Shown here one piece after another: positions 45,810 through 47,219 of a stretch of DNA of 64,000 bases. Positions within the stretch are counted from its first letter, which is position 1. The number at the start of each line of letters is the position of its first letter. The stretch spans positions 62,001 through 126,000 of the forward strand of contig CACILM010000001.1 of NCBI GenBank assembly GCA_902587515.1. The letters run 5' to 3'. The DNA comes from an uncultured Pelagibacteraceae bacterium (GTDB lineage: Bacteria > Pseudomonadota > Alphaproteobacteria > Pelagibacterales > Pelagibacteraceae). A program made the translations under genes and the position numbers. Under the pieces are notes generated by a model. That model was not told where the DNA came from. It was given only the letters and a program-made list of their open reading frames with translations, and searched no databases.

Positions 45810-45884
45810 TGGAGCGGGCAAAGGGACTTGAACCCTCGACCTTCTCGTTGGCAACGAGACGCTCTACCACTGAGCTATGCCCGC
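45810..45884 (-). tRNA. tRNA-Gly(GCC)
   Basis: On the minus strand: acceptor GCGGGCA pairs with TGCCCGC, D-arm AGCTCAGTGGTAGAGC, anticodon arm CTCGT-TGCCAAC-GAG with anticodon GCC, T-arm GAGGG-TTCAAGT-CCC, discriminator T and a genome-encoded CCA (45810-45812). The 5' half is repeated perfectly at 47089-47128. No strong promoter is visible in the 60 nt upstream of this copy. Confidence 0.97.
45845..45884. repeat. Left 40-bp direct repeat (5' half of tRNA-Gly), putative att site
   Basis: These 40 bp are identical to 47089-47128. The repeat spans the tRNA 5' end through the anticodon loop and part of the 3' anticodon stem; identity stops sharply at both ends. It bounds the left side of a ~1.24-kb segment holding only the DUF4268 gene, as expected for an integration core site in a tRNA gene. 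Confidence 0.85.
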
Positions 45885-46056
45885 TTGTTCTATTATTGTT
45901 GAAAGTATTAGCTTTTTAAAAATTAAGCAAGGGGCAATATTGGTAAAATTTGCAGCAAACTGTGTCGTGAGTGAGTCGAAATTTTATCTAAAAAAGTAAT
46001 TTAAAATTTATAAGAAGTTCTCTAAAATAAATCTTTCAAAGATATAGAATGCACTT

Positions 46057-47010
46057 ATGAAAAAAAATTTAGGACGTCTAGAAAAAGTAGAATTAAGAGA
46101 CATATGGGAAAAGGAAGATAAGCATTTCACCCCTTGGTTAGCCAAAGAGGAAAATATTGAATTATTAGGTGAAACTATTGGTATGACACTAGTTGTTGAG
46201 GCGCAAGAAAAAGACGTTGGTCCTTTTAAAGCTGATATTTTATGCAAAGACTATGCTACTAACAATATGGTTCTTATTGAAAACCAATTAGAAAAAACTG
46301 ATCACAAACATTTAGGGCAATTACTAACTTACGCAACTGGCTTAAAAGCAGTCACAATAATTTGGATTGCCTCAGAATTTAATGACGAACATAGAGCAAC
46401 ATTAGATTGGTTAAATGATATTACTGATGAAAAATTTAATTTTTTTGGAGTTATTGTTGAGCTATATAAAATTGGTGAGTCAAATATTGCTCCAAATTTT
46501 AAGATTATTAGTAAACCAAATAATTGGTCTAAGAGAGTATCTTCAGCCAAATCTAAAATGCAAAATGAAGAGCTTGGAGAAACAAAATTATTACAAATGA
46601 AATTTTGGAGTGCACTTAACGATAAAATAAACCAAATTGAAAATAGCCCTGTTAAACCACAAAAACCTACAGCAAAGCATTGGCACACTTTTTCGACAGG
46701 TAAAAGTGGGGTTAACTTAAACTTAACGTTCAATACTAAAACCGAAAAATTAGGTATAGAAATTTATATTATAAATGACAAAGAAATTTTTGATGAGCTC
46801 GAACGAGATAAAGAAGAAATAGAGAAAAAACTTAATGTCAAATTAAGTTGGCAACCGCTTCCTAATAGATCTGCATCAAGGATAAAGCTATACAGGGAAA
46901 ATTCAATTTTGCATGAAGAAAGCAAATGGAAGGAGTATATAGATTGGTCCGTAGAGATGTTGGAAAAATTCCACATAGTATTTTCTTCAAAACTCAAAGC
47001 GATAGATTAA
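46057..47010 (+). CDS. DUF4268 protein with PD-(D/E)XK nuclease-like N-terminus
   Basis: 317 residues. The N-terminal part shows GPFKADILC (Asp60), VLIENQ (Glu75, Gln77) and TDHKHLGQLLTYATGL, the pattern of a PD-(D/E)XK-fold domain with Gln in place of the usual Lys. The C-terminal part (~170-315) fits DUF4268. It is the only gene between the two tRNA-Gly repeats. Related proteins occur in variable islands and near restriction genes, so nucleic-acid defence is possible but unproven. Upstream, TATAGAAT could serve as a -10 box. Confidence 0.8.
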   Translation: MKKNLGRLEKVELRDIWEKEDKHFTPWLAKEENIELLGETIGMTLVVEAQEKDVGPFKADILCKDYATNNMVLIENQLEKTDHKHLGQLLTYATGLKAVTIIWIASEFNDEHRATLDWLNDITDEKFNFFGVIVELYKIGESNIAPNFKIISKPNNWSKRVSSAKSKMQNEELGETKLLQMKFWSALNDKINQIENSPVKPQKPTAKHWHTFSTGKSGVNLNLTFNTKTEKLGIEIYIINDKEIFDELERDKEEIEKKLNVKLSWQPLPNRSASRIKLYRENSILHEESKWKEYIDWSVEMLEKFHIVFSSKLKAID

Positions 47011-47045
47011 TTGTAGCGACAGTGTGTCGAAAACAGAGGTCGTTT

Positions 47046-47128
47046 AAAAAAGGTTAGAAGAACCGCAGGAAATAAACCAAGGACTACGTCGTTGGCAACG
47101 AGACGCTCTACCACTGAGCTATGCCCGC
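47046..47128 (-). pseudogene. Truncated tRNA-Gly (5' half) with possible terminator
   Basis: 47089-47128 carries the tRNA-Gly 5' half. Beyond it the sequence keeps only scattered matches to the tRNA 3' half (GTC, GGTT, TCC in register) and cannot form a T-arm. On the minus strand a short GGTT-CTTCT-AACC hairpin with six T (47064-47046) follows. With the promoter upstream this could make an ~85-nt transcript, but no functional tRNA. Confidence 0.6.
47089..47128. repeat. Right 40-bp direct repeat, putative att site
   Basis: Perfect copy of 45845-45884 (see the left repeat). It marks the right boundary of the segment; beyond it the sequence is the apparent ancestral upstream region of tRNA-Gly, with its promoter. 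Confidence 0.85.
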
Positions 47129-47137
47129 AATATTTAA

Positions 47138-47167
47138 AGTATAATATATGGTCTCCAAAGCGGTCAA
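47138..47167 (-). promoter_or_regulatory. Strong sigma70-type promoter reading into the truncated tRNA
   Basis: On the minus strand TTGACC (47167-47162), an 18-nt spacer, and TATACT (47143-47138). The -10 box ends 9 nt before the tRNA 5' end, so transcription should start about 2-4 nt upstream of it. This is the best promoter in the region and most likely the original tRNA-Gly promoter. Confidence 0.7.
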
Positions 47168-47219
47168 CCTAAATAAAATGTCGCTATCAGTAAAATGAAT
47201 TTTTTATTATAATAACCTT

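Follow-up and report, generated by a model that had tools for sequence, protein, structure and literature searches.

A putative integrase-less mini-island with a single defence-candidate gene at tRNA-Gly of a SAR11-type genome, and its likely relation to phage-satellite integrases

Bacteria of the SAR11 group are among the most abundant bacterial groups and have very small genomes. They are said to contain few prophages (PMC7771536), and with genomes this small and prophages this few, the movement of their accessory genes is an open matter. tRNA gene cassettes for which no enzyme is named are known from other streamlined marine bacteria, "Candidatus Actinomarinales" and "Ca. Methylopumilus", where they are also termed additive flexible genomic islands (PMC7771536, PMC10872708). 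Cassettes of the Actinomarinales are exchanged between genera (PMC7771536), and islands bounded by tRNA-Lys repeats range from 330 bp to 42 kb (PMC10872708). Enzyme-less elements that are moved by others have also been described (PMC5704250, PMC11389934), and mobile elements of the ocean measuring about 4.6 kb form the subject of another report (PMC12324425). Island finding of the Islander type demands an integrase and a length of at least 2 kb (PMC4383910). Here, we describe a segment of 1,244 bp that this procedure filters out by design, together with the class it belongs to. The segment adjoins the tRNA-Gly(GCC) gene in a 64,000-nucleotide stretch (the window) of contig CACILM010000001.1 from an uncultured Pelagibacteraceae bacterium with a SAR11-type genome (1.05 Mb, 94.6% complete). 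Very probably, it is a non-autonomous integrative mini-island that would be mobilised in trans by a phage-satellite-type integrase and that carries a candidate single-gene defence system, PDC-S11.

The first 40 bases of the tRNA-Gly gene recur exactly at a start-to-start distance of 1,244 bp, and a gapless extension of this repeat spans 61 nt at 84% identity. One substantial intact gene is located in between. This agrees well with an earlier note on the same DNA, which had described a perfect 40-bp repeat of the tRNA-Gly 5' half around a segment of about 1.24 kb with a single plus-strand gene. A search of the whole genome with the tRNA-Gly sequence (E ≤ 0.001) returned two matches, with 75/75 positions at the gene and 40/40 at the orphan half. 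No recombinase or integrase was detected inside the segment by a profile search, and the single PF00589 match in the genome was a XerD-like gene on another contig (C2; L167, positions 1312-2265).

The site was surveyed using the tRNA gene and the adjacent LON-domain gene as queries over 101 genomes of the genus, and both were located on one contig in 77 of them. The tRNA-LON gap measured 83-211 bp (median 94) in 64 of these 77 genomes, which corresponds to an empty site; the other 13 carried more than 250 bp, so the impression of almost entirely quiet core surroundings conveyed by the earlier note has to be revised. In the window, 91 bp separate the orphan half from the LON gene, a distance within the spacing of empty sites. 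When the flanks of the window were joined and aligned to the empty site of genome G039, the core matched at 40/40 positions, the LON side at 79/92, and the phhB side at 346/400, which places the insertion junction inside the repeat. The native upstream sequence of G039 scored 77/92 on the orphan side and 39/92 on the tRNA side; the present upstream region of the tRNA gene therefore came with the insert.

By its sequence, the 1,244-bp segment is a site-specific insertion at the 5' half of tRNA-Gly(GCC), not a tRNA duplication. The insert brings its own 5' half and tRNA-upstream sequence and has pushed the native versions toward the LON-domain gene. Since it carries both of these parts, the tRNA stays whole. 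Such an insertion, with no recombinase left, had been proposed in the earlier note, which suggested comparing the phhB-tRNA-Gly-LON region across SAR11 genomes and named two outcomes that would speak against it: the presence of the segment in all relatives, or a junction outside the 40-bp repeat. Neither was observed. The comparison revealed empty sites with a junction in the repeat as well as sites with other cargo, and transferred relatives were also found (see below). The 5' half was regarded in that note as an unusual target; a 5' fragment is uncommon yet known, being present in 159 of 3,919 Islander islands (PMC4383910).

Further members of the family were sought with an orphan-half pattern of 39 exact bases, any base, and then not G. 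It matched in 7 of 169 genus genomes, in 9 of 397 family genomes, and in 11 contigs of a named genome collection, 10 of them from SAR11; the remaining one, L138 from Hyphomicrobium, was a chance match and was dropped. Orphan halves with G at the excluded base escape this pattern, and a 1,647-bp element as well as L162 were found through the arm motif only. Seven of the 13 segments longer than 250 bp were considered as members and rejected, as no orphan half was detected at E 0.001: those of G014, G015, G028, G064, and G066, with a single 273-aa gene on about 900 bp, and those of G078 and G093, with two genes on 1.6 kb. Of the 13 sites, G003 shows a decayed half by eye and the far end of G033 runs to the contig end; G024, with its orphan half at a contig end, was left untyped.

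Nine elements with differing cargo form type A, and the DUF4268 gene is that of the window. The others encode a trypsin-like protein (G084); small proteins (G038); a 195-aa protein with no Pfam match (G207); a 197-aa protein resembling the latter plus a 140-aa protein that is HNH-like by eye and matches only DUF968, below cut-off, in Pfam (G298); a four-gene set including a phage CII-type regulator (L140 and L142); a NUMOD3 protein (L147); an HSP90-like ATPase (L162); and a choice-of-anchor I beta-propeller (the 1,647-bp element, in six genomes). The second end type, type B, is associated with a PvuII-like restriction enzyme and methyltransferase (G073), an OmpA-like protein (G009), a 915-aa protein (G069), and, by eye, pilus genes (G104 and G033). 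The latter form type IV pilus-like clusters at the same tRNA-Gly (L081, 2439-18750, in G033; L095, 1140-10059, in G104), with the type-B end sequence on the tRNA side in G033 and on the far side in G104; these clusters may thus have entered as, or grown from, such an island. Stacked element ends were seen in G069, G009, and L160, and none of these arrays contained an integrase. The integrase profile, built from eight integrases including that of the viral contig L105, was run on 34 regions and matched only the controls (L105, L122, and L127) and the host recombinase on L167.

Near-identical integrase-less elements (97.9-99.8% identity) occur in hosts with diverged flanks. L140 (single-amplified genome AG-457-N04) and L142 (AG-422-N07) have a 2,329-bp element in common; identity extends over 2353 of 2404 columns when the tRNA is included and falls to 965/1444 past the tRNA and to 313/539 past the orphan half. 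The drop in identity starts inside the tRNA, and the 3' halves differ. Copies of the 1,647-bp element are identical at 1683/1686 positions between L163 and L164 (phhB, 234/333), at 1681/1686 between L160 and L165 (phhB, 266/333), at 1682/1686 between L165 and L166 (phhB, 280/333), and, in the closer hosts L161 and L165, at 1652/1688 (phhB, 315/333). The occurrence of near-identical integrase-less relatives in diverged hosts implies that the class as such moves. Relatives of the window's element have, by these comparisons, recently passed from one SAR11 genome to another that is diverged from it, and their breakpoints lie at the tRNA.

Several type-A elements, whose ends were read in the tRNA direction, share a stretch at the end adjoining the tRNA. 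The 21-bp motif CGACACACTCACGACACAGTT was located 93-94 bp from the tRNA, with 0-4 mismatches, in all seven tested tRNA sides, which include L140 and L142 as copies of one element, and at 93 bp by coordinates in L160 and L162. The count thus covers eight of nine type-A elements, with the tRNA side of L147 left out. On the far side, the motif occurred 59-60 bp from the core in all eight tested type-A sequences, with 0-7 mismatches (five in the window; shuffle p ≤ 0.003). It was absent from the four type-B elements (9-11 mismatches). A motif-free scan placed the best direct repeat with a period of 10-12 at 57-61 bp from the core in 9/9 type-A elements and in 4/4 integrase-carrying relatives, one of them truncated. 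The p-values of single sequences ranged from 0 to 0.28; the weight of this evidence lies in the shared position, and the sequences are partly related. The type-B repeat differs, being located 84-85 bp from the core in three of four elements and 79 bp in one. Among 300 genomes of the genus of G207, the motif pattern was found at 10 places in 9 genomes, all at tRNA-Gly(gcc), with none for the reversed control. In the window's own genome, the sole place with at most three mismatches to the motif is that on the tRNA side of the island.

A candidate source of the integrase was found among viral contigs. The 27-bp core pattern was present in 24 of them; 23 run on as ordinary tRNA genes (one cut by the contig end), while L105 does not. 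This contig is circular (5,875 bp, with a 123-bp terminal repeat) and possesses the tRNA-Gly 5' half as attP, with a 317-aa tyrosine integrase beginning about 110 bp after the core. It also encodes an AAA protein and a protein resembling the terminase small subunit (PF03592, 30.3 bits against a cut-off of 26.1), and is satellite-like. The integrases of L122 and L123, contigs with terminal repeats and a tRNA-Val-like 5' half (anticodon by eye), are 66-67% identical to that of L105; a tRNA-Val-like 5' half was also recognised by eye in L127, a genomic stretch of G184. In the first 36 positions after the core, the window matches L105, L122, L123, and L127 at 21-24 positions (chance mean 10; 0/2,000 shuffles each), and the 1,647-bp element matches L105 at 28. 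The far-end layout of the mini-islands recurs ahead of the integrase in the small circular contigs. Beyond its arm repeat, the latter element contains a stretch that by eye resembles the satellite integrase leader down to the ATG, a hint of origin by deletion. The attP of L105 and L122 matches the tRNA 3' half at 18/36 and 15/36 positions, respectively. When scored as whole tRNAs in Rfam, attP or orphan sites of the window (47064-47128, minus strand), L105 (5177-5234), L122 (1558-1621), L160 (7869-7935, above the cut-off of 29), L064 (3531-3595), and L067 (2693-2748) obtained 22-31 bits, as if attP might once have held a whole tRNA gene; the same search listed no match for the sites of L123 or L140.

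On this basis, mobilisation could proceed as follows. A tyrosine integrase of the L105-type family would arrive in trans and bind the end motifs as arm-type sites. Crossover would occur in the anticodon loop, the element's 5'-half copy would then restore the tRNA gene, and the mini-island would thereby be excised or inserted. It may also be carried in cis, as part of a tandem array that includes a satellite. Between the two options of the earlier note, loss of the recombinase and mobilisation in trans, we favour the latter, though such elements may owe their origin to deletion of the recombinase. In G373, a DUF4268 segment at tRNA-Thr (L175) coexists with an integrase on another contig (L124) that is related to that of L105 at 49% identity; action in trans might be sought there. 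The host XerD-like recombinase was also considered as a mobiliser, and no evidence ties it to these sites. PF00589 matches were present in 71 of 101 genus genomes, 65 of these 71 having exactly one. The XerD-like gene scores far below the curated XerD cut-off (75.7 vs 329.6 bits), and the XerD-like frames of the genus mostly measure about 309 aa or 320-325 aa, both together in none of the six genomes with two matches.

A number of observations weigh against the reading given here. No integrase was detected by tblastn with eight integrases in the eight fetched arm-motif regions, including the 1,647-bp elements, and none that matches the window's exact motif was found in these regions or in viral contigs. 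G038, G073, G104, and L147 are partly sequenced, and integrase absence there covers the known part. The viral contigs contained no match to the type-A arm pattern; the type-B pattern and two exact junction patterns also gave none. Of the 397 family genomes, 12 contain related integrases (13 in total), with only short tRNA-Gly matches within about 1.5 kb on each side, and the integrase of L127 is truncated (142-aa frame, 57% over residues 1-123). Free local alignment of the right halves of the window and L105 was not significant (p 0.29 and 0.32); that with L127 was (z 11.3 and 10.5). The right half of L162 matches the integrase-carrying contigs weakly. The letters of the far-side motif are significant in only one of the four, L122 (6 mismatches, p 0.001; p 0.06 in L123, 0.21 in L127, and 0.65 in L105), and in the three circular contigs the best tRNA-side match is 119-129 bp away from the core instead of 93-94. 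The window's own period repeat, taken alone, is not significant (p 0.28). In DUF4268 islands at other tRNA or tmRNA genes, the scan placed this repeat at 55, 29, 24, 8, and 7 bp, so that the 60-bp rule is supported at tRNA-Gly and in the satellites; in G373, a repeat 59 bp from the core was seen by eye and the automatic scan preferred others. An AlphaFold model of the cargo protein, made with no alignment, was unusable (pLDDT 43.6) and gives no structural support for a function.

The promoter evidence is to be counted on the same side. Insertions at tRNA-Gly replace the upstream region of apparently the only copy of this tRNA gene, and the TTGCTT-17-TACTTT stretch of the insert is, by eye, common to the relatives. 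A scan with the sigma-70 consensus detected other, weaker sites at the tRNA end of the insert (9/12 at 45892-45920); the total of 8 promoter-like sites was no excess over shuffled sequences (5.6, standard deviation 2.4), and the strongest sigma-70-like site is the displaced native one.

Of the other explanations, the one that deserves most attention is a dead remnant, i.e. a satellite or prophage at tRNA-Gly that lost its integrase and all but one gene and persists by descent. We regard it as unlikely. It would account for the absence of an integrase from the segment and of any member of that family from the rest of the genome, for the five mismatches accumulated by the far-end motif of the window, and for the failure to find a second host with the window's element at tRNA-Gly; the leader-like stretch kept by the 1,647-bp relative also fits an origin by deletion. 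A remnant inherited by descent is hard to reconcile with the near-identity of integrase-less relatives across hosts with diverged flanks, with the retention of both arms and the core in the window, and with the occurrence of the gene in just one of 101 genus genomes, many of which are incomplete. Spread by homologous recombination with no site-specific enzyme involved appears very improbable. The phhB and LON-domain genes flank the site in many genomes, and exchange through them is possible. Against this, the identity of L140 and L142 collapses at the tRNA on both sides, the flanks of L163 and L164 are far less alike than the element, and phhB values are 242/333 and 234/333; the flanks had no part in the exchange.

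The earlier note had named a decayed tRNA duplication as the main alternative to an insertion; the form considered here is a tandem copy of tRNA-Gly with the DUF4268 gene inserted between the copies by chance. The starting point of the note was correct: in-register matches between the orphan side and the tRNA 3' half are indeed present (15 of 36; shuffle p 0.0175), and the orphan reaches 27.5 bits in Rfam, just below the cut-off of 29 (74.8 for the intact tRNA-Gly). The same right half, however, adjoins the orphan in elements with other cargo and is shared by integrase-carrying contigs, where L105 and L122 score 28.6 and 26 bits, so that the faint 3' half is the right half of an attP. Moreover, the gap in 64 of 77 genomes is too short for a second copy, and the repeats occur at fixed distances. 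A duplication is barely credible in view of this, and a mini-island moved by a satellite-type integrase remains the reading we prefer.

The cargo protein belongs to DUF4268 (Pfam, E 5e-30) and matches the PADLOC model PDC-S11 over its full length (E 1.3e-122, residues 1-314 on positions 1-313 of 318). Genes of this family were found in 7 of 317 genomes of the order, the window's included. Four of the six others are enclosed by direct repeats that stem from a tRNA or tmRNA gene, namely tmRNA in G339 (86% amino acid identity), tRNA-Thr in G403 and G373, and tRNA-Leu in G397. The gene of G132 lies beside tmRNA repeats, and no tRNA was present in the 11 kb fetched for G278. No integrase was found at these five tRNA- or tmRNA-associated segments, some of which hold further genes. 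The locus of G397 (L182, 4214-11586) is a cassette array at another tRNA; its three repeats (118-148 bp) enclose the DUF4268 gene in interval 1 and a helicase-like gene (by eye) in interval 2. The cargo gene aligns without stops to five SAR11 homologues. Four of them give dN/dS values of 0.09-0.22 at dS 1.6-2.5; relative to the closest homologue, that of G339, synonymous sites are saturated. Viral contigs contained no DUF4268 protein, and annotated phages only distant matches (8 records, 24-45% identity). The 40-bp core was found in 19 records of annotated phages (80-99% identity), 14 of them under an annotated tRNA. A sequence search of PDB gave one chance-level match to a designed protein (E 0.08). 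A stretch with ADILCKD and ENQ looks PD-(D/E)XK-like, and a nuclease fold is a candidate. The DUF4268 domain occurs beside GmrS/GmrD restriction domains (PMC4619093); judged by titles, none of the papers listed for DUF4268 is on this gene. From its family membership, the protein is expected to act in single-gene antiphage defence.

The features of the locus are given in Table 1. The far-end motif overlaps the final two bases of the cargo stop codon.

Table 1. Sequence features of the putative mini-island and its flanks (window positions)
Feature	Position	Strand	Basis
tRNA-Gly(GCC), target gene, apparently completed by the element's 5'-half copy	45810..45884	-	ARAGORN; sole full-length copy found in genome; Rfam 74.8 bits
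Core repeat, tRNA-side copy, 5' half through anticodon loop	45845..45884	-	Exact 40-bp repeat
Element end adjoining tRNA; promoter-like TTGCTT...TACTTT, 17-nt spacer	45885..45930	-	By eye; near-identical in window, G084, G038
Putative tRNA-side arm motif CGACTCACTCACGACACAGTT, 94 bp from tRNA	45958..45978	-	1 mismatch to family motif
Cargo gene, 317 aa, DUF4268 / PDC-S11 single-gene defence candidate	46057..47010	+	Pfam, PADLOC, homologue alignment
Putative far-end arm motif CGACACACTGTCGCTACAATT, 60 bp from core	47009..47029	-	5 mismatches; 0/1,000 shuffles reach it
Putative attP right half	47030..47088	-	21-24 of first 36 positions match integrase-carrying relatives in register
Core repeat, orphan copy; displaced 5' half of original tRNA gene	47089..47128	-	Exact repeat; empty-site comparison
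Displaced native tRNA upstream region; top sigma-70-like match TTGACC-18-TATACT at 47167-47138	47129..47219	-	79/92 columns match G039 empty site

There is about an even chance that SAR11 takes part more widely in a cassette economy with no resident integrase, in which elements made of attP and a few genes at tRNA and tmRNA genes would be shuttled by transient phage-satellite integrases and cargo of the PDC-S11 type would hop between tRNA specificities. If this is true, streamlined genomes gain integron-like gene exchange at almost no genome cost. From sequence, it is possible to name the sites, the boundaries, recent transfers, and a candidate family of enzymes, and a search combining the arm motif with a tRNA half could count the class across marine genomes. 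A single-gene defence candidate that recurs is also linked here with relatives of phage satellites. Among the matches listed in the open-licence literature, none described tRNA elements of SAR11 that lack an integrase, and no open-licence paper joining Pelagibacter, phage satellites, and tRNA was found.

Compared with described systems, the tRNA gene cassettes of Actinomarinales and Methylopumilus are alike. The cassette repeat of Methylopumilus is the last 20 bp of the tRNA, while that of the window is the 5' half; the available descriptions of both groups give no arm motifs or integrase source, unlike those proposed here for the window family. The intact tRNA gene and a displaced fragment in the same orientation and on the correct side, with the 5' fragment upstream, correspond to an Islander island; the segment differs in having no integrase inside and a length below 2 kb. 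Like a CIME, it retains attL and attR, recognised here by sequence, lacks integration and transfer genes, and might undergo tandem accretion with an incoming element (PMC5704250). CIMEs derive, in that account, from decayed conjugative or mobilizable elements; the integrase related to the present family is phage-satellite-like, and the elements go down to one gene. Tycheposons are also cargo elements at tRNA genes of marine bacteria, described as 4-200 kb in size with a tyrosine recombinase (PMC10872708); the window's element has 1.2 kb and no such enzyme. Marine phage satellites (VEIMEs, named in PMC11389934, and PICMIs, PMC10803314) find their counterpart in L105, which is small and circular, encodes an integrase, a terminase-small-subunit-like and an AAA protein, and shares the core and attP layout with the window. 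The segment itself has none of these three genes and is unlike a satellite of the PICI or VEIME kind, which has its own integrase and packaging or replication genes. In CALIN and MITE elements, the ends are recognised by an enzyme encoded elsewhere (PMC11389934); the window's element would work alike, at tRNA attB and attP sites instead of attC sites or transposon ends. What appears to be new is a single-gene, integrase-less element that uses the 5' half of a tRNA gene and whose end sites can be tied to a family of satellite integrases.

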